This document shows, piece by piece, positions 671-10,943 of a stretch of DNA of 64,000 nt. Within the stretch, counting starts at the first letter, position 1. Every line of letters starts with the position of its first letter. The stretch is from Desulfobulbaceae bacterium (GTDB lineage: Bacteria; Desulfobacterota; Desulfobulbia; Desulfobulbales; Desulfocapsaceae). The stretch spans positions 1-64,000 of the forward strand of contig JAGXHG010000032.1 of NCBI GenBank assembly GCA_024636345.1. Reading direction: 5' to 3'. A model generated the notes under the pieces. That model was not told where the DNA came from and did no database searches. It saw only the letters and a list, made by a program, of their open reading frames with translations. The position numbers and the translations under genes were made by a program.

Positions 671-699
671 ATTGTAGTTTAGACTAGACAAACTGGGAA

Positions 700-760
700 A
701 GAACTGGGAAAGAAAATAGCCGAGACCAAAGAGAACAAAGCTCAATGATTTCGGCTATTT
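700..760 (-). terminator. Probable original ssrA terminator, now separated from ssrA by the island
   Basis: A perfect 10-bp stem (AAATAGCCGA with TCGGCTATTT, 27-base loop) lies directly beyond the left copy of the tmRNA 3' end. Read on the - strand it is followed by a T-rich tail. In an uninterrupted chromosome this hairpin would follow the CCA end of ssrA at once, so it is best explained as the ancestral ssrA terminator displaced by integration. The hairpin is seen directly; its history is inferred. Confidence 0.55.
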
Positions 761-761
761 A

Positions 762-786
762 AATGGTGGAGGCGGCGGGAGTCGAA
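762..786. repeat. attL: left 25-bp copy of the tmRNA 3' end
   Basis: These 25 bases are identical to the 3' end of ssrA (positions 10085-10109): they contain the CCA end, the 3' acceptor strand and part of the T arm, reading GGTGGAGGCGGCGGGAGTCG on the + strand. Bases on both sides differ from the other copy. Tyrosine recombinases commonly use tRNA or tmRNA 3' ends as attachment sites and leave such a duplication. Confidence 0.9.
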
Positions 787-1080
787 ATTCGACACCCTTT
801 TACATACCTGAAAGAGAATATTTAGTATCAAACTACAACCTCATCATAGCACGCAATTCCTTACCCTGCAAGGGGTTAGAAAACAAATAGGATCAGCAAC
901 AAGACAATAGGCTCTGAATTTAAGTCCGTTTTAAAATACAAATATTAGCATATGTTATGTGGTACGGCGTGTAGCACGTATATATTTAAACGAAAAATTT
1001 ATCTTGGCAACAAAAGGCTAAAAACGATAGATATGAAGCCCTTTATCTGGAACAATGTAGAGGTGAGAGTTATTGGGAAA

Positions 1081-1142
1081 GGGAAGGAGACGCAAAGCTA
1101 AACGAGTTCAAAGTCGTATCGCTAGCATCTTGTCTCCTTCCC
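1081..1142. repeat. 11-bp perfect inverted repeat, 40-base loop
   Basis: GGGAAGGAGAC pairs perfectly with GTCTCCTTCCC across 40 bases. There is no adjacent T run, so this is not an obvious terminator. It may be a structured RNA or a protein-binding site in the island end. Confidence 0.6.
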
Positions 1143-1323
1143 TCAAATCCGCAATCGAACCGGCGTCCCAAATCCTCCATATTTTATATTCTATACCGAG
1201 TCCCAGGCTTCACTATCAGAATCTCGCCAAGACCGACTAAAATTTAGAACCAATGTTTTATATTTGTAATGCAGGCTATCCAACCGCTATAACACGAAAT
1301 CAGAGATCATAGCTTTTTTACAG

Positions 1324-1368
1324 TTAATTTTCCTACCCTTCCAGCAAACCCTTGCTATTAAAGGATCT
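1324..1368. repeat. 45-bp direct repeat, copy 1
   Basis: Begins TTAATTTTCCTACCCTTCCA and ends with ATTAAAGGATCT. A second copy with about five mismatches begins 90 bases further right, so the unit and the gap between copies are both about 45 bases. Confidence 0.8.
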
Positions 1369-1413
1369 GCGACAAACTCACACACACCTAGTTTCTCTTT
1401 ATCTTATAGAGCA

Positions 1414-1458
1414 TTAATTTTCCTACCCTTCCAGAAAACCTTTAGTATTAAAGGATCT
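1414..1458. repeat. 45-bp direct repeat, copy 2
   Basis: Nearly identical to the copy at 1324-1368. It ends 12 bases beyond the stop of the helicase-like gene, which reads in from the right, so it lies in that gene's 3' untranslated region. Confidence 0.8.
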
Positions 1459-1470
1459 ATGATTTTGATA

Positions 1471-3615
1471 TTATGCTATATCGTAACAGGCCGGAAAACC
1501 AGCCAAGGATTTATTTGAGAAACCTAACTTGGTACATGCATCCCGTATTGACTTGACGCCTCCTTTTTTAAGCAAATCTATAAGTTCTTTACTAGAATAC
1601 CGACCAGGATAAGACTTAGCGAGAACAGCAAGTCTGGACTGAACCGTACTTTTACTAGTGCTGCCTTCCTTTCTACCTGTTTTCGCTAGTCTCATAGAAT
1701 CAAAATCGAAATCCCAATCATGGTCAAAGACCAATCCAGGCATCTCACGCTTAATATCACTCAAGAGCCGTTTGGTCACATGATCGGTCTTTCCAGGTAA
1801 CAATATATATATATGACACTCTGGGCAGTCACCATCTTTGCTATCCACCTTCCGAGTAGCAATTCTATTGATACCCTGAATAACGTTATTGCTTATCATG
1901 CTTAATCGAAGCTCTTCTCGAACATCCGGAAAAGCTCTAAATTTGGGTTTCGAAAACCATTCTTGATCCTGCACACCATTTAACGCCATAAAAGATGTTG
2001 CAGAGTAGTGGGCAGGGGGATAAGGCAGGCTCAAAATAAAAACATTCTTGCAATCTCTATAATCATTCGAACCATCAATATTGAACCAATGATCGAAATG
2101 TAGGTTAGAATTAACATTTGAAAGTCCTTGTGTAACAACACGATCACTCATATCATTATATTTAGTTTCACGGCTGAGACTATTCGCGTGGTCAAGGAAG
2201 CGTTCCTCTACGGACTTATGTGTTATGACTAATATGTTTTCAGCTCCTGTAACACTAGAAATCTCTTCGAAAAGACTGCTTGCTCTTTTCCTATCTTTCA
2301 TAGATCCATAGACAGAACCTTTACCCACTTTATAACCATGCCCGATATGTAGAGTTGCATTACGATAAGTCCTAGCATTCTTCGGTACATCATTCACAAT
2401 TTCAGCGTCAGGAGTACAAAGATATAAGGCATTGACTTCAGCGGTAGCATCCAAAACAACGGCACCAACACTATTTTCAGGTACAATCCTTCTAGATGTT
2501 CTAATATTTTTGTAGCCACCACACTTCTCGTAATACAGCCATTCTCGCCATGCTTCCGAAAGACCACTGATAGCCTTAACTTGCTGCTCGCGCTGGCTCT
2601 GCTGGAGTTCTTTCTTATAAGGAAGATGCTTATACCCCGCGGACTGAAGATCCTCTATGAATAGAGTAAGGTCAGGCATGACATCTTCTTCACGCTCAAC
2701 GAGAGTTTCCTGTTTAGTGTTACCTTCATCTTCGATCTTATCAAGAGTATCAACCATATCCCTGACAGCTTCAATCTCACTTGAATACCGTTCATGCATA
2801 AACTTAGGCAGAAAATTGAGGCATTGGCGCAAAGCAGTAACATCAACACAATAGTCATCAACTAAATCGAGACATTCATCAACGATAGTCAATTTACGTT
2901 TCAATTCCTCAGAAAAGAAAACATCGGGAAATGCTTTTTCCAACTCTGGATTTCCCAGGCGCACTTGACGTGATCCCCAATTGTATAGCTTATTATGAAC
3001 TGTATCCTCCTTCATTGCTGCGTGAAGAGCATTTTGAAATTTAACATGTGTAATGATCGCGACAGGATAATTTGATAATTCAGATAGTTCAGTTCCAGAA
3101 TCAGTATAAAAGGCAATACAAGCAGGATCACCATTAGGGCGGCGGCCTTCCCGAAGAATATCGCCATATATCTTTTTGCAATCTTCGATTCTTCTTGTAA
3201 CAATTAAGATACCGGGATGATCACTATCTGATAATTCTGACATAGCGATACAATACTTGATAAGGCACTGTGTCTTCCCTGTTCCTGTTGGTGCCGGAAT
3301 CACTCTGAATTTTTTTGCTTCATCTGATATGGGTCCATCAGGAGAAGGAGCTAATGCTATCCGATAATTAAATTCTCTGGCAATAATACTCCAAACCTCT
3401 AGAAGGTTATCGTTCCCTTCTACGACATAACCGTTTTCTTCCCATCGGTTAGCCATAAACTTCTTGAACTTGTTAGGCTCAATTCCACTGGATGTTGCTA
3501 TACCATTTAGAGGTTTCATAAGGCTGGATACTTTGCCAGTTTCACGTTCAGTCATAATTTTTCTCCGGATAGGGGCCAGAAACCGAGATCCTTTTTCGCT
3601 TGTGTCAATATACAT
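1471..3615 (-). CDS. SF2 helicase-like ATPase of the island (714 aa)
   Basis: The start chosen is the ATG of MYIDTSEKG, which follows GGAGG at ideal spacing; an ATG four codons upstream overlaps that site. A Walker A motif APTGTGKT lies near residue 110, a Walker B-like LTIVDEC near 245, and QGINRIATR near 580 resembles helicase motif VI. The order fits a superfamily 2 nucleic-acid helicase/translocase. The last 60 residues, rich in lysine and serine, may be a small DNA-binding domain. It is the largest cargo gene and probably acts in replication, mobilisation or defence of the island; the sequence does not say which. It is a single-gene unit, preceded by a G-rich tract about 100 bases upstream. 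Confidence 0.78.
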   Translation of the reverse strand: MYIDTSEKGSRFLAPIRRKIMTERETGKVSSLMKPLNGIATSSGIEPNKFKKFMANRWEENGYVVEGNDNLLEVWSIIAREFNYRIALAPSPDGPISDEAKKFRVIPAPTGTGKTQCLIKYCIAMSELSDSDHPGILIVTRRIEDCKKIYGDILREGRRPNGDPACIAFYTDSGTELSELSNYPVAIITHVKFQNALHAAMKEDTVHNKLYNWGSRQVRLGNPELEKAFPDVFFSEELKRKLTIVDECLDLVDDYCVDVTALRQCLNFLPKFMHERYSSEIEAVRDMVDTLDKIEDEGNTKQETLVEREEDVMPDLTLFIEDLQSAGYKHLPYKKELQQSQREQQVKAISGLSEAWREWLYYEKCGGYKNIRTSRRIVPENSVGAVVLDATAEVNALYLCTPDAEIVNDVPKNARTYRNATLHIGHGYKVGKGSVYGSMKDRKRASSLFEEISSVTGAENILVITHKSVEERFLDHANSLSRETKYNDMSDRVVTQGLSNVNSNLHFDHWFNIDGSNDYRDCKNVFILSLPYPPAHYSATSFMALNGVQDQEWFSKPKFRAFPDVREELRLSMISNNVIQGINRIATRKVDSKDGDCPECHIYILLPGKTDHVTKRLLSDIKREMPGLVFDHDWDFDFDSMRLAKTGRKEGSTSKSTVQSRLAVLAKSYPGRYSSKELIDLLKKGGVKSIRDACTKLGFSNKSLAGFPACYDIA

Positions 3616-5104
3616 TACATCCTCCATTGACTAATTGGTTTAGGTAAACGAAATGCCTACCTACAATGAACAACTGTTGCGCCTATCTTTTTAATATGAT
3701 TCAACATTTTATGATTTTGTTCTTTGCGGGGGGGGGAGGGGCACGAATTATCTTAAGAAGTTATGACCAAAATTATCTGTATCTACAGGTAGTCCTTTAA
3801 TATGATCTTGATAGTGCTTAGGGGAATCTGAAGGGATAGGCAGGACCTAAAAACATGGAAACTTGTGAGGATTTGCAATCCAGGGATAACACCGTGAGCA
3901 ATACAGGTCAGGAGGTAGGCAACAGGTTGAGCAGAAGAAAACACCATTAGTTTAAATAACTTCTTCCATCCTGGTTAATGGAACGGACTATGGCCTTGTG
4001 TGGTACGAGGTTGTCATATCACCTATTTCTGTGTGGTATGATGCTCAGAATGGACTTAATGCGAGGTATTTATAAGGGAGGAGTAAGCATCTGCTCAAGA
4101 GCTTGAATCGTTACGGCTCTGGCACAGGGAAGGATTTTAGAGGGTTCCAGGGTCGGCTATTGGTGGAGGCTGCACGAGGCGATGCAAGCGCGACAGCAAC
4201 GCAGCTACCCCTGATCTGAGAATAGGCATAATCCGGCTCTGACATCATTATGAAGCTCTTAATGTGGGTACAACATGTGAGGAGTTGACGAGATAAACGC
4301 CAAGTGTGAGGAAGGATGGGAAGGGACCGAACCATACGGGGGAAAAAGCATCTTTGGGTAGGTGAATTGCCCCCCACGAAATAGAAAATAAAAAATTAGA
4401 TGCTTAGTGCAGAGATTATGCTTTCTTTATAACTCACAGGATGTAATAAAAATAATATATTCCAATATATTATATGTATGCTCATTTATGAAAAGCCAGA
4501 TTAAATAAGAAAAATTGAAATAGCTAGTTTCAATATCGTCTGACATAAGTTGGGAGAAAGACCAGAGCTAATCTGACACCTTGTTTATTTGTAAGCGCAA
4601 ATTAAACACCGCTCACAGTATGCCCCAGAGCTAAATATGTCTGGCCGAGATTATACGGTAGCAGTGCTCTATAGTCATCCTCTGATGAGCCGGTGTAGAT
4701 ATCGACCGAGTTAACCAGCCCGCCTACCAGTTTAGCAACCAACTTTGAGCGTGGCACAATGTTGCTGCAAATTCAAGAAAACGCGCGTGCTTGCGGGTCT
4801 GGTTAAACGATTTGTTAGCCTGGCGCCTTGTATGTAATTGTCTAGAATTGCAGTGCTTTCATGAGATATTCTCGTAAGGTTTTTCTTGTTTCTATAATTG
4901 CAGAAACAACCGTATACCCCCATTAACTTTTGTCATAGTTGTATTTGATATGGGGTTATTGTTGATGGGGTACCATATATTCAGTTGCAACATGTGCCAA
5001 TAAACCGGAACGGGTTTCCCTTATTGTGGTTGCTTTTCAAACCACAAACAAATTTTATGGTGGTGTTGCTTGGTTAGCTGAGTTTTTTGACCAAAACTTG
5101 GTGC
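3616..5104. other. 1.5-kb region without a clear gene
   Basis: No frame here has both a ribosome site and protein-like composition. Visible items: a run of nine G followed by A and GGGG (3729-3742) upstream of the helicase gene; an open stretch on the - strand (about 4603-4740) reading NSVDIYTG...YNLGQTYLALGHT before a stop, probably the tail of a lost gene; and a long imperfect fold that resembles an integron attC site (4708-4821). The right third is A+T-rich. The region looks like the debris of several insertions. Confidence 0.5.
4708..4821 (-). other. Possible integron attC-like recombination site (degenerate)
   Basis: Read on the - strand, the segment starts with GGCTAACAAATCGTTTAACC and ends with GGGCTGGTTAACTC. 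The outer arms pair (GTTTAACCAGACCCGC against GCGGGCTGGTTAAC), and inner blocks such as CACGCGCGTTTTCTTG resemble the long VCR-type attC sites of marine bacteria. Its length of about 114 bases fits that class. Both simple-site cores differ from consensus (RYYYAAC and GTTRRRY) by one base. No integron integrase is in the window. The fold is seen directly; the attC identity is an inference. Confidence 0.4.
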
Positions 5105-6685
5105 TTATTTGTGTTGCCGAATTCTTAATCTAGACCTCAGATTAACCAAGAAACTTTTATATAAGTTATATGGCGTCCATACAGCCCCTTTATTTTCGTT
5201 TTTGTCTGCGATACTAATCAAGAAACTTTTATCTAAGTTATATGGCGTCCATATAGCCCCTTTATTTTCGTTTTTGTCTGCGATACCAATTTCAATGACA
5301 TTTTTTTCTTTTAGAGTATTCAAAGAGTTCAAGAAAATCGTATGTTGGTTCTCTTTTTTTACAGAAAACTGACTTATATGCTCACTATTTATTGATATAT
5401 ACATATCGATGTCATCCATAGAGCCAGCTTCATCAGATCTTATTAATATTTTCTTTGATTCAACAAATGAACGAGTTAAGAAAAGTCTGACACGATTAAA
5501 TCCTTTACGCCAATCACTATTAAAATCTTGTTTAACATTCCAACCATTCATTAAGAGAAACTTTGAACTGTTCATGAATGGAAAATTATTAAAATATTTT
5601 TCTGGTATATGTGGTAAAAGAAAATTTATAGATTCAGTTGGGTTTCCAATATATTGAAAAAGTAATTTAGTAGGTATCTCCTCCGAGCATTTTATTGTTT
5701 CAGGAATTTCAATGTCAGAAACATTGATAAGAGAGCTAATATTCCCTGCCCTAGACTCAAGATAAGATTTACTTTTTGAATTAATTTTCCAGTAAGTTGG
5801 TATATCTGAAATTTCACTATTTTCATGAATCTTCATTGTAAGTATTGTTGCATATGGATCAAGCATTTCCAGAGGCTCAATATATTTATTGAATGGGATT
5901 ACACCTTCATTTACACCATTCATTACCATTGGATGATTGTCAAATATTCGTAATTCTTCTTGCTCATGCTCTTCATGGTTTGCAACCCTTTTAGAAAAAG
6001 GATCAGAAATCAAAAACACACAACCTCCAGGCTTTGTAACACGATACATCTCTTTAACAGATGCAAGCTGTTCATTCATATGATGTAGTGCGGCGTTTGC
6101 AATCGTATAATCAAATGTATTAGAGGTAAATGGTAAACAATCAGAGTTCCCACCTAACCATTGTGCCTCTGGAACAATCTGAGAACCACTCAATATCGAG
6201 GTTGGGTTATAATCAAGACAAACGAGTTTAGCCCCACGATTTATAAGTCTTACACTATCCGAACCTAAGCCTGCCCCTATATCAAGACAGAGCTTGTTAT
6301 TAAAGTTAACATCTTTAGTTAGCAATTCAAATCCAGCCCATTCACGCAAACGAACTTGTTGAGCCATTTCAGTACTGCCAGGTACGACATTTTTTTTAAC
6401 ATTGGCTTTCTTTTGAATATAAGTACTCTCAAATTTATCATTAAATGTTTTTTCAGACTCTTCAATGTTTTTTCTAACCTTCATAGGTTCTATAGGAGCT
6501 GAAATCTTTGATGTGATTTCCATCAGCCCTAAAGTGTCATCATCATTGTAACTTCCAAGAAACTTAATACCTTTATAGCTAGGATATTCATGCCCACATT
6601 TTATGCATTTTAAAGGCTTTTTATATATATCTAAAGAATGATGGCCACAGAAAACACACCTAATATTTTCAATATTTATTTTCAT
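5105..6685 (-). CDS. Zinc-ribbon class I SAM-dependent methyltransferase (about 526 aa)
   Basis: The start chosen is the ATG of MKINIENIRC; a TTG 14 codons upstream is possible, and neither has a strong ribosome site. Residues 8-30 form a zinc ribbon (CVFCG ... CIKCG). Around residue 131 comes the SAM-binding loop LDIGAGLGSDS, then the acidic LVCLDYNP strand, and later ANAALHHM and VTKPGGCVFLISDP, typical of the Methyltransf_11 fold. The 250-residue C-terminal part is unassigned and ends with a tandemly repeated 24-residue unit. The base composition is A+T-rich, unlike the core genome, which suggests transfer. The substrate is unknown; a surface-polysaccharide or small-molecule role is only a guess. 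Confidence 0.75.
   Translation of the reverse strand: MKINIENIRCVFCGHHSLDIYKKPLKCIKCGHEYPSYKGIKFLGSYNDDDTLGLMEITSKISAPIEPMKVRKNIEESEKTFNDKFESTYIQKKANVKKNVVPGSTEMAQQVRLREWAGFELLTKDVNFNNKLCLDIGAGLGSDSVRLINRGAKLVCLDYNPTSILSGSQIVPEAQWLGGNSDCLPFTSNTFDYTIANAALHHMNEQLASVKEMYRVTKPGGCVFLISDPFSKRVANHEEHEQEELRIFDNHPMVMNGVNEGVIPFNKYIEPLEMLDPYATILTMKIHENSEISDIPTYWKINSKSKSYLESRAGNISSLINVSDIEIPETIKCSEEIPTKLLFQYIGNPTESINFLLPHIPEKYFNNFPFMNSSKFLLMNGWNVKQDFNSDWRKGFNRVRLFLTRSFVESKKILIRSDEAGSMDDIDMYISINSEHISQFSVKKENQHTIFLNSLNTLKEKNVIEIGIADKNENKGAIWTPYNLDKSFLISIADKNENKGAVWTPYNLYKSFLVNLRSRLRIRQHK
5147..5290 (-). repeat. Tandem 72-bp duplication inside the methyltransferase gene
   Basis: Two nearly identical 72-bp units lie head to tail and keep the reading frame (24 codons each). 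They encode two copies of a segment around IADKNENKGAIWTPYNL. Only a few bases differ, so the duplication is recent. Confidence 0.88.
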
Positions 6686-6821
6686 AATAATTTTTGGTTC
6701 ATTCGTAAAAAAGTTGAAGTTCAACAACCGTTAGTAACTGTATGAAAAAAAAGCATCGGATTTAACCAACTCTGTTAAAGTTTTGTTTGCGCACAGAACC
6801 TTGACAGAGAGGAGAAACCCG

Positions 6822-7040
6822 ATGCATCTCAAGACTATCACGGAGCTGCTTGCTTTGCCAAACTTTCAAGTTGTCAAAATGCTCGAACAGACTGAAACTA
6901 GAATTCATCTACTCGTTGAGTTAATCGAGTTGGTCGAGCCCGTTTGCTCTGCCTGTGGCATGGTTCATCATACTCCAATCCACAGTATAGGGTGGATCCG
7001 ATCTAAGCTTCTACATCTGATTTCATTGGAAATTATTTAA
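6822..7040 (+). pseudogene. ISL3-family transposase, N-terminal fragment
   Basis: Starts with ATG after GAGAGGAG and reads MHLKTITELLALPNF..., the typical ISL3 N-terminus, followed by a zinc-finger pair (CSACG) and HTPIHSIGW. The homology stops there and the frame ends after about 72 codons, while intact ISL3 transposases have about 400-430 residues. The DDE domain is absent, so this is a dead remnant. Its last bases overlap the end of the convergent membrane-protein gene, suggesting a deletion joined the two. Confidence 0.75.
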
Positions 7041-7707
7041 TAATTCCATATCTGACAAATAACGCTATTTTAATTGACAGATTTATTAGTAGATAAATTA
7101 CTCCTGAACCCAGCAAGAAAATAGTTAGAGGAAGGAGTATTGAAACAACGTATGAATATTTCTCTCGGGTCGAATTTTTCTGAACCTCTTCTTTTGCAAT
7201 TACAAATAAGTTTTGGTATTTTTCTGCTGTCTTTTTATCAAGAAAACTGAAAATTCCATAGTTGTACTCTGAACACCTCAGTGCTGCCATTTTCGAAGTG
7301 TCAGATCCTGTAGTATCGGAAACTGGAGACAATGTACAGACATCGTCACGATATCCATGAATGCCTCCCCCGACAGTAATGGTCTCAACTCCTCCTGCCC
7401 TTATGATTACTTCTTGTTGAATACCATTCTTGTCGTCCTCAAGTACACGAAGCCCTTCTAAGGCCACTTTTTCGTGAAATCCACCATGAAGGATAGCTCC
7501 GTTCCATAGGAACAGGTCTGGCTCTACAATCCAGCTCCCTGGGGACGTTATCCATGAATGGCATTCATATTGTCGGCCGGTAGAATCCTTCATGCATTGA
7601 ACAATATGATCGTCAAAAAAAATGTTATTTTCAGCACTCCACCATCCAAGGACAAGAAGTGGAAGAAAAAGAACGAAAAAAAATCTCTTGTATTGGCTTT
7701 TGTTCAT
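7033..7707 (-). CDS. Hypothetical membrane protein (224 aa)
   Basis: A membrane segment lies near the N-terminus (FFFVLFLPLLVLGWW), followed by about 140 residues with several cysteines that would face the periplasm, and a second, long hydrophobic segment near residues 180-212. No family is recognised. It lies just downstream of a tiny secreted MORN-like peptide gene on the same strand, and the two are probably co-transcribed. The end of the gene overlaps the ISL3 fragment, so the native C-terminus may have been altered. The function is unknown; an envelope role is inferred from topology only. Confidence 0.6.
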   Translation of the reverse strand: MNKSQYKRFFFVLFLPLLVLGWWSAENNIFFDDHIVQCMKDSTGRQYECHSWITSPGSWIVEPDLFLWNGAILHGGFHEKVALEGLRVLEDDKNGIQQEVIIRAGGVETITVGGGIHGYRDDVCTLSPVSDTTGSDTSKMAALRCSEYNYGIFSFLDKKTAEKYQNLFVIAKEEVQKNSTREKYSYVVSILLPLTIFLLGSGVIYLLINLSIKIALFVRYGIIK

Positions 7708-7740
7708 TATTTATTCGGTACCTCCGAACATAGCATTGAT

Positions 7741-7908
7741 TTACCATCCAGCCACTCCCCCCACATATTGTGAGCCAGCGGGCAATTTGTGTGTTCCTTG
7801 CCCATTTACACAGTCACCTTCAATGCACGTGATGACCTCCCCCCTGGCAATAGTTAAGCTAGGTAGTAAACAGAGAGAGAAAACGAATAAGTAGAACAAT
7901 TTCTTAAT
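7741..7908 (-). CDS. Tiny secreted MORN-like peptide (55 codons, ATT or lost start)
   Basis: The frame reads (I)KKLFYLFVFSLCLLPS..., a textbook signal peptide ending near LTIARG, then CIEGDCVNGQGTHKLPAG and SQYVGG, which match one MORN repeat (GxCxNGxGTxxxPxGxxYxG). There is no ATG, GTG or TTG ahead of the signal peptide: the codon where ATG is expected is ATT, five bases after AGAGGG, and an in-frame stop lies four codons further up. Either ATT is used as a rare start or the ATG was mutated. It lies directly upstream of the 224-aa membrane protein gene. A MORN protein normally carries several repeats, so this one may be truncated. Confidence 0.5.
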   Translation of the reverse strand: MKKLFYLFVFSLCLLPSLTIARGEVITCIEGDCVNGQGTHKLPAGSQYVGGVAGW

Positions 7909-8097
7909 GGAATCCCTCTAGGAAGACATTTGCAGTGCACATTTCAACCTAACAAAAAAACACCATGTCAGTTTTGGATACATTAATTGGTCCAGAGGTT
8001 TCTAAACATCCTAGGGGCCAGATGGTATGGAGAATCTTGGCTGCGCCTGAATCAGATGTCATGCAAGACTCAGGCCAGACCTTTCACCCCAAAGATT

Positions 8098-9981
8098 TCA
8101 ACACAAATCTGCCAGCCCCTCCGTTAAGGCATCCAGAAGCTGTTGAGCGGTGTAACCCTTTCCGTAGTGCCCATATGTCATGCTCTCAACGGAATGGCCC
8201 AGGATGGAAGCCGCAAGCCCTTCCTGGACACCCTTGCGCTTCATTTCTGTGGCTGCGGTATGACGGAATGAGTGGAAGACTAGATCGTTAGCCTCAGGCA
8301 AGATTTCTCTACGAAAGGAGGCAAACCACTTTGAGGCATTTTTACTGTAGCCATCCCGACCGTGAGGTAATTCAGGGAATAGTCTATTCTCCCCTTTATC
8401 TCGTTGCTCCTGCACAAACTCCATGAAACCGAGGCGTTTCAATTCAGGGTGGATCGGAATTTCTCTCTCGGAGGAGAGGTTCTTCAATCGTTGGTCCTCA
8501 CGCTTATCAGTTATGCAGATACAGGTGATGCCGCCATCCTTCTCGTTTATATCATCAAGATAAATCTGACACAATTCATTCAACCTTGCTCCAGTGTAAA
8601 TGCCAAGGAGGGGCAACCAGCGATGAAATGGCTTGGTCTTTGCTCCTTTGATGTTTGATCTTTCGAGTATGGCCTTGATAATGATCTGTACTTGTTCAGG
8701 CTGAAACTCTTTCCTCGTATCGCTCTTCCGTTTCGTTTGTTTTATACTCAGCCCAACGAAGAAATTCCTATCAATAAAGCCATGCTTTAACGCATAATCC
8801 ATTAAGGCATTAACTCGAATGAGATATTTATTCACGGTAGTAATGGATATACAATCCACCTTTGCGTCCTGTGCTACCTTCCCTTGAATCTTTGCCTGCC
8901 CCCTGCCATTCCCCTCAATATCCTTGAGGTATGTCTTCCGCTGAGTTGGATTCGCAGGAAGAGCAATCAACGTATCCTTGAAGGCTCTAGCTATTCCAAA
9001 CGATAGGTCGGATGGCGACTGCACTTCCAAAGCGTGTAGGATATCCCGCATACAGCCCAAGATAGAAGCAATCTCTCCGGAACTTTTCTCGGTCCAAGCT
9101 TTACCGAGTTTCTTCTCTGCGATAAAGGAATCTATCAGATCTTGGATGGACTTCGTAGGTTCTTCTTCTGTACTCCTCTCAGGAGACCCGCTCTTGTATT
9201 GCCCAAGGACTGGTTTAAGGGATCGGTTTCCAGCGGGATCAGGGTCTTTAGCTCCAAACTCTTGGATAGCCGAATTATATTCATTAATGGCGTAACTCAG
9301 AGCCTTTAGCATACCAGGGCGTAAGCTAGCTATCAAAGAGAGGTCCTTTTCATTTATATCTATCAAGCCAGCCATATCAGCCAGGAGTTCAGCAGGGTTA
9401 GGATTATTTCCTGGTAGACTGTTCAGAACAGCATTCCACTCGGCATCATTGTCAAATGAGCCTTGAAGTTTCTGCATATCCTTAAGGCTGTATGGCCCAT
9501 CCTCATCCATCCTATCCTTATATCTGGAAAGAACTCTATCATAAGTTTCATCGAGAGCTTTCTTGATGATGTGGAAAGGAAGTTCCTGTGGGCGAGAGTT
9601 ATTCTTGGTGGTTTTAGTCCCTCCGGTGGGCTGCTCGTCACTTTTCTCTGAGGTCTTGGCCATAGTCTCCTGCATCGTCTCTTGAACTATTTGCGTTACT
9701 CTATTTAATTCTTGAGTAAGGAAGATAGCGGTACCCAAGTCATCCGTCAATAGAGATCGCTGGATAGAGGAATCTTGCAATCTTCTTCTGTACTGATAGA
9801 CACATCGACCCGTAGAATCCATCCTTGAGAATAGATAAGGAACTCCTGTTTTCGTAAGGAGAGGTCTTGAAGTCCGTAACTGGGAGGATCGTTTGGTCGT
9901 ACTTTGATTTGTTCTTTTGGAGGGATGTTGGGTGGAGGGAAAAATCAGGTTTTGAATGATTCTTTGTTTAGCGTGTGGCAT
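8098..9981 (-). CDS. Tyrosine recombinase (island integrase), 627 aa
   Basis: Catalytic residues of the phage-integrase family are visible: arginine in YTGARLNEL (near 465), HSFRHTAA (near 571), the histidine of LGHSVES and the tyrosine of YGHYGKGY (near 604). It is longer than usual (350-450 aa) because of a long N-terminal part with a basic first 60 residues and a charged linker. It reads away from ssrA and starts about 100 bases from the attachment repeat. It is the natural candidate for the enzyme that integrates and excises this island at the tmRNA gene. The catalytic set looks complete, so it may be active. Confidence 0.92.
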   Translation of the reverse strand: MPHAKQRIIQNLIFPSTQHPSKRTNQSTTKRSSQLRTSRPLLTKTGVPYLFSRMDSTGRCVYQYRRRLQDSSIQRSLLTDDLGTAIFLTQELNRVTQIVQETMQETMAKTSEKSDEQPTGGTKTTKNNSRPQELPFHIIKKALDETYDRVLSRYKDRMDEDGPYSLKDMQKLQGSFDNDAEWNAVLNSLPGNNPNPAELLADMAGLIDINEKDLSLIASLRPGMLKALSYAINEYNSAIQEFGAKDPDPAGNRSLKPVLGQYKSGSPERSTEEEPTKSIQDLIDSFIAEKKLGKAWTEKSSGEIASILGCMRDILHALEVQSPSDLSFGIARAFKDTLIALPANPTQRKTYLKDIEGNGRGQAKIQGKVAQDAKVDCISITTVNKYLIRVNALMDYALKHGFIDRNFFVGLSIKQTKRKSDTRKEFQPEQVQIIIKAILERSNIKGAKTKPFHRWLPLLGIYTGARLNELCQIYLDDINEKDGGITCICITDKREDQRLKNLSSEREIPIHPELKRLGFMEFVQEQRDKGENRLFPELPHGRDGYSKNASKWFASFRREILPEANDLVFHSFRHTAATEMKRKGVQEGLAASILGHSVESMTYGHYGKGYTAQQLLDALTEGLADLC

Positions 9982-10045
9982 GGCGTGTGGCTCCCGTGAG
10001 GATTAATGATATTCCTCTTGTCGGGCATGCCTAAAATCCACCGAA

Positions 10046-10074
10046 ACCCTTGCGGCACTAAGGTCCGCAAGGGT
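10046..10074 (-). terminator. Island-borne hairpin after ssrA, probable terminator
   Basis: A perfect 10-bp stem (ACCCTTGCGG with CCGCAAGGGT, 9-base loop) lies 12 bases beyond the CCA end of ssrA, on the island side of the attachment repeat. The T tract on the - strand is weak (TTTCGG). It would replace the chromosomal terminator that the island displaced. Confidence 0.55.
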
Positions 10075-10084
10075 CTGGTATCGT

Positions 10085-10109
10085 AATGGTGGAGGCGGCG
10101 GGAGTCGAA
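10085..10109. repeat. attR: 25-bp repeat at the intact ssrA 3' end
   Basis: Identical to positions 762-786. This copy is part of the complete tmRNA gene (T arm, 3' acceptor strand and CCA), so integration restored ssrA. Confidence 0.9.
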
Positions 10110-10481: not shown

Positions 10482-10943
10482 TTAAATCTCGTTGCGGCGC
10501 ATGACCCGTTGGATCTCACGATCACTCTGCTGTTCCTTGAGAGTAGCCCGCTTATCATACTGTCTTTTACCACGAGCCAGACCTAGTTCCACCTTGGCCT
10601 TCCCTTTTTCATTAAAGTATATCTTCAGGGGGATCAAGGCAAGTCCTTTCTCCCGTAACTTACCAATCAGTTTGTTGATCTCCCGCTTATGCAGCAGAAG
10701 TTTACGTGACCGCATGGGTTCATTGGGATTATGGGTGGCAAAGGTATAGAAGGAGATGTGGACATTCAACAGCATCAGCTCACCCCTATCATTAATCTGG
10801 GCATACCCATCACGCAGATTGGCTTTGCCCGCCCGCAGTGACTTCACCTCGGGCCCGGTCAAAACCATACCGGCCTCCATGGTTGACTCGATAGAGTAAT
10901 CATGGAAGGCTTTTTTGTTACGACAGACTATCTTTTCGGCCAT
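10482..10943 (-). CDS. smpB: SsrA-binding protein SmpB
   Basis: The 153-residue protein matches the family in length and motifs: the N-terminal [29 protein letters not shown], and the C-terminal [14 protein letters not shown] with the basic tail that enters the mRNA channel. It binds the tRNA-like domain of tmRNA and is required for trans-translation. It lies 34 bases upstream of ssrA on the same strand, the usual arrangement. The ATG follows GGAG at 6 bases. Confidence 0.97.

Follow-up and report, generated by a model that had tools for sequence, protein, structure and literature searches.

A small genomic island at the 3′ end of the tmRNA gene in a Desulfobulbaceae bacterium

In this study, we analysed a 64,000-nucleotide stretch of DNA (hereafter the window, positions 1-64000 of contig C9) from the 2.96-Mb, 41-contig genome of a Desulfobulbaceae bacterium. 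The window begins at the start of the contig, where the end of an IS3-family element with its transposase occupies positions 1 to about 310, and it carries an intact tmRNA gene (ssrA) next to smpB. An exact 25-bp direct repeat, AATGGTGGAGGCGGCGGGAGTCGAA, is present once at the 3′ end of ssrA, with 23 of its 25 bp inside the gene and 2 bp just downstream, and once more 9.3 kb away, leaving a left flank of 761 bp. The chance expectation for an exact 25-bp match within the stretch is about 5e-11. The duplication of the ssrA 3′ end at both borders, on which the original prediction was built, is exact, and the features between and beside the two copies are collected in Table 1.

Table 1. Features of the ssrA locus and of the island inserted there (window coordinates)
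Feature	Position	Strand	Evidence
Likely ancestral ssrA terminator, displaced (hairpin and U tract)	690..761	-	95% identity to G005 post-ssrA sequence (690-786)
Left att repeat, displaced 25-bp ssrA 3′ fragment	762..786	.	Exact match to 10085-10109
Helicase-like ATPase, 718 aa	1471..3627	-	PF00270 E 3e-4, below cut-off
Putative insertion-sequence relics: 53-bp repeat and adjoining stretch	4539..4819	.	Repeat elsewhere in genome; DNA matches in family
540-aa ORF, zinc-ribbon-like CxxC pairs and class I SAM methyltransferase	5105..6727	-	PF08241 E 4e-15
Truncated transposase-like ORF (6783-7040) with upstream end, IS relic	6684..7040	+	DNA match ~6684-6902 in family genomes
224-aa protein with hydrophobic segments close to both termini (by eye)	7033..7707	-	
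52-aa ORF, signal-like N-terminus	7741..7899	-	No Pfam match
Tyrosine recombinase (integrase), 627 aa, apparently intact	8098..9981	-	PF00589 E 1.1e-15; phrog_1 E 4e-36
Hairpin of the island immediately downstream of ssrA, candidate substitute for the terminator (U tract weak)	10037..10078	-	-25.4 kcal/mol
Right att repeat, restored ssrA 3′ end	10085..10109	-	Exact 25-bp match
ssrA (tmRNA), intact, tag ADDYNYAVAA	10087..10447	-	ARAGORN; Rfam RF00023, 212 bits
smpB, chromosomal flank, syntenic in genus	10482..10943	-	PF01668 E 1e-57; flank aligned in relatives

The integrase gene lies downstream of ssrA and is read in the same direction. The protein had been called apparently intact, and this description held: its reading frame is open throughout, and R466, K500, R573, H596, and Y606 are present and invariant among seven aligned sequences. 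Its best relatives in genomes reach up to 40% local identity and are mostly found beside ssrA. Specifically, the best ones within the family (G098, G099, G095, and G093) directly follow ssrA, with the orientation seen in the window, as do those of G091 and G077; the remaining family relatives are located at tRNA-Leu, tRNA-Ala, or tRNA-Glu genes. Overall identity to the aligned relatives is 23-27% (26-27% to the ssrA-linked best matches), and in the integrase tree the window protein has as its neighbour a Vibrio integrase linked to tRNA-Ser, joined by long branches that make the placement unsure. Because of this low identity and this neighbour, the specificity of the integrase for ssrA rests mainly on its own location. 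Its relatives in IMG/VR carried no ssrA att core, and the contigs that hold them contained no match to any other island protein.

The helicase-like ATPase and the methyltransferase had both been anticipated in the cargo. The former shows SF2-type motifs, namely PTGTGKT (113), DECL (250), DATA (393), and QGINRIATR (584), with the below-cut-off domain match given in Table 1, and the latter has its Pfam domain. Outside the genome that carries it, the ATPase had no relative among 93 family and 395 phylum genomes, nor among plasmids, phages, and IMG/VR, and none found in the PDB was convincing; an AlphaFold model computed without an alignment had a mean pLDDT of 36. The ATPase could be a replication protein. 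The methyltransferase ORF contains an in-frame 72-bp tandem duplication (5143-5286, 96% identical, 24 aa) in the part encoding its C-terminus, and its matches in the family genomes are limited to the widely shared SAM domain. The 224-aa protein had no match in Pfam, NCBIfam, PHROGs, or PADLOC and no relative in the 92 other family genomes, plasmids, or IMG/VR. The 52-aa ORF corresponds to the peptide predicted to be MORN-like, a label that found no support in Pfam. A defence assignment of the cargo was considered and rejected, as PADLOC gave weak partial matches only. The cargo most likely has an accessory role, either for the host or for the element itself; that the ATPase and the 224-aa membrane protein, with the small secreted-type peptide, form an undescribed system seen so far only here, for example for phage defence or for the element's own replication, appears quite improbable.

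The body of the island differs from the chromosome around it. Its GC content is 0.404 versus 0.503 in the right flank, where windows of 9.3 kb range from 0.468 to 0.536, and when its 9298-bp unique part was compared at the DNA level with the 92 other family genomes, only short relics matched, around 4539-4819 and 6684-6902. We had allowed that the same 9.3 kb could be ancestral sequence shared by close relatives, and this possibility was rejected because the body is absent from them. The main ORFs cover 68% of the body, and about a third lies outside them, including a non-coding gap with relics at 3630-5100. A distant plasmid search with this gap gave no match, and a group II intron or other RNA in it was rejected, since Rfam at E values up to 1 returned tmRNA models only. 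Judged from its repeats and matches, the stretch at 4539-4819 is probably derived from insertion sequences. The 53-bp repeat within it (4539-4591) is present at least eight times in the genome, for example at 75440-75492 and 128574-128626 of contig C9, and also in other members of the genus. The truncated transposase-like ORF had no Pfam match and was assigned as ISL3-like by eye. In addition, the helicase-like gene is closely followed, toward the left end of the island, by a 45-bp direct repeat (91% identity, spacing 90; 1324-1368 and 1414-1458), whose copies may be arm sites for the integrase or the product of a tandem duplication.

An unoccupied ssrA site was found in two genomes. In G005, of the same genus, a match to window positions 690-786 (97 bp, 94.8%) runs unbroken into ssrA and smpB, and in G013 the same arrangement is seen with 88% identity over 713-786. 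Both genomes thus provide the empty site by which the prediction was to be checked. The stretch common to the window, G005, and G013 is likely the ssrA terminator, as it forms a hairpin followed by T residues along ssrA transcription; in the window this hairpin (690-761) has a free energy of -19.3 kcal/mol and a TCTTT tail, and it lies 9.3 kb from ssrA, beyond the left repeat. Past the terminator, the flank of G005 is unlike the left flank of the window. In G005, an ORF (L104 1-525) is oriented against ssrA and extends into its terminator, and by eye it is possibly the C-terminus of a HEPN-like protein.

Other elements occupy the same site in related genomes. In G002, ssrA is separated from the same ancestral terminator by an unrelated element of ~6.7 kb, encoding an Arm-DNA-bind_3/Phage_int_M integrase and a DUF3987 protein. 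This satellite-like element shares with the island the ssrA 3′ end and the displaced terminator, but differs in its unrelated integrase subfamily and in its DUF3987/Toprim replication-type protein. An integrase of the G002 type also adjoins ssrA in G003, G008, and G010. By these gene neighbourhoods, integrases of at least two unrelated types use the ssrA 3′ end in this genus, which makes it a hot spot. A further counterpart was found in G099 (L099 336-19204), with a related integrase, the same ssrA 3′ att core, and the same layout; its borders are ssrA and, at a distance of 18.9 kb, a repeat of 25 ssrA bases. In contrast to the island, the G099 element is 18.9 kb long and carries a TIR-TPR protein, HNH, radical SAM, an AntA/KilAC antirepressor, and a second integrase; homology of the island helicase to its 437-aa ATPase was sought by phmmer and not found. 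The ssrA fragment that follows the displaced terminator in G002 and G011 is decayed, whereas the window copy is exact, which suggests that the insertion in the window is younger.

Taken together, the exact repeats, the empty site, and the absence of the content from relatives make it very likely that positions 762-10109 are a small integrative genomic island that was inserted into the ssrA 3′ end by its own tyrosine recombinase; the original reading of the 9.3 kb as a mobile element is thus supported. The circular form would have carried a copy of the 25-bp ssrA 3′ end (attP), and recombination of attP with the chromosomal attB would have split ssrA, which would have been restored by the 3′-end copy of the island. 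The original 25 bp and the original terminator would thereby have been pushed 9.3 kb away, and the hairpin at the island end would now stand in the place of the old terminator, so that ssrA could still be terminated. We infer the catalysis by the island integrase, the exact crossover point, and the terminator role of the new hairpin.

The Islander catalogue comprises genomic islands in tRNA and tmRNA genes (tDNA), with a length filter of 2-200 kb and a size distribution peaking at 13.6 kb (PMC4383910). By the criteria of Islander, the locus shows an intact tmRNA gene at one island end (ARAGORN, Rfam), a displaced 3′ fragment that lies on its downstream side and keeps its orientation (the exact 25-bp direct repeat), and a tyrosine integrase gene inside the interval (PF00589, catalytic residues); the unoccupied site in G005 and G013 adds a supporting feature. 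These properties are shared with Islander tDNA islands, from which this one, at 9.3 kb within the filter and below the peak, differs in nothing essential (PMC4383910). Neither relaxase nor conjugation genes were detected among the island ORFs scanned with Pfam, NCBIfam, and PHROGs or among the small ORFs, nor phage structural, packaging, or typical satellite replication genes with PHROGs, whose matches were limited to the integrase, the transposase, and weak ones for the helicase and the methyltransferase. No recognisable excisionase was found among the ORFs, and no second copy of the island was seen. Given several relics and neither a transfer gene nor a recognisable excisionase, the element probably needs help to move or moves no longer; it is probably a small, partly decayed (reduced) integrative element.

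How far this decay has gone is the point on which a finer version of the same explanation differs, namely whether the element still moves. Under it, a larger island or satellite prophage would have left only this dead remnant, its mobility genes having been removed by internal deletions and IS insertions while the ends and the integrase survived. The low share of the body in main ORFs, the IS relics, and the lack of any excisionase, relaxase, or phage structural gene among those found favour it, but the exact att repeats and the open integrase point to a fairly recent integration, and the displaced fragments in G002 and G011 are visibly decayed by comparison; we give this version slightly less than an even chance. 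A chance repeat or an assembly artefact is barely conceivable. The contig does start only 761 bp to the left, at an insertion sequence, but besides the very low chance expectation, the 72 bp that precede the left repeat independently match the sequence downstream of ssrA in G005 and G013 and its displaced counterpart in G002, and the empty site contradicts this explanation.

It is also unlikely that the island is composite, with an older left element (helicase, 787-4158) that lost its integrase and a younger right one (methyltransferase, 224-aa protein, and integrase), separated by a decayed third att copy at 4159-4183. At that place 19 of the 25 att positions match in the same orientation, a score above the maximum of 18 obtained in 300 Markov resamples of the island, and the non-coding gap with its relics spans it. 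This att-like stretch hints, if thinly, at a composite origin; it is, however, locally GC-rich, the test was made after the match had been seen, a score of 19 is likewise obtained at the end of a tRNA-Leu gene in the window, and neither half occurs alone in any genome.

Many mobile elements insert at the end of the tmRNA gene, and the integrative island described here is a well-supported, ordinary one of this well-known kind. It is cleanly bounded, with the empty site and both junctions visible, and it adds the observation that at least two unrelated types of integrase share the same ssrA end in one genus, with elements that bring their own downstream hairpin. These data can be used in annotation and in catalogues of integrase targets, and the general picture is unchanged.

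A strong hairpin stands just after ssrA both in the window and in G002-type elements, which, by their sequences, appear to replace the displaced ssrA terminator with a hairpin of their own. The G098/G099 group has no matching hairpin directly after ssrA and shows instead a conserved stretch with two TTATCCAC words. Six family genomes (L098, L099, L100, L101, L103, and L062) have such a stretch with TATCCAC words, for example CTTTATCCACTCACATTATCCACA, within 100-110 bp after the end of ssrA, and a related integrase adjoins it in five of them; the words may be DnaA-box-like or integrase arm sites. Additionally, a hairpin sequence of ~57 bp directly downstream of ssrA is fully identical in G011, G019, and G029 (L052, L061, and L063), which belong to three genera, and other members of the genus of G011 have different sequences there; this hairpin is a conserved terminator or else marks the end of an element that spread recently.
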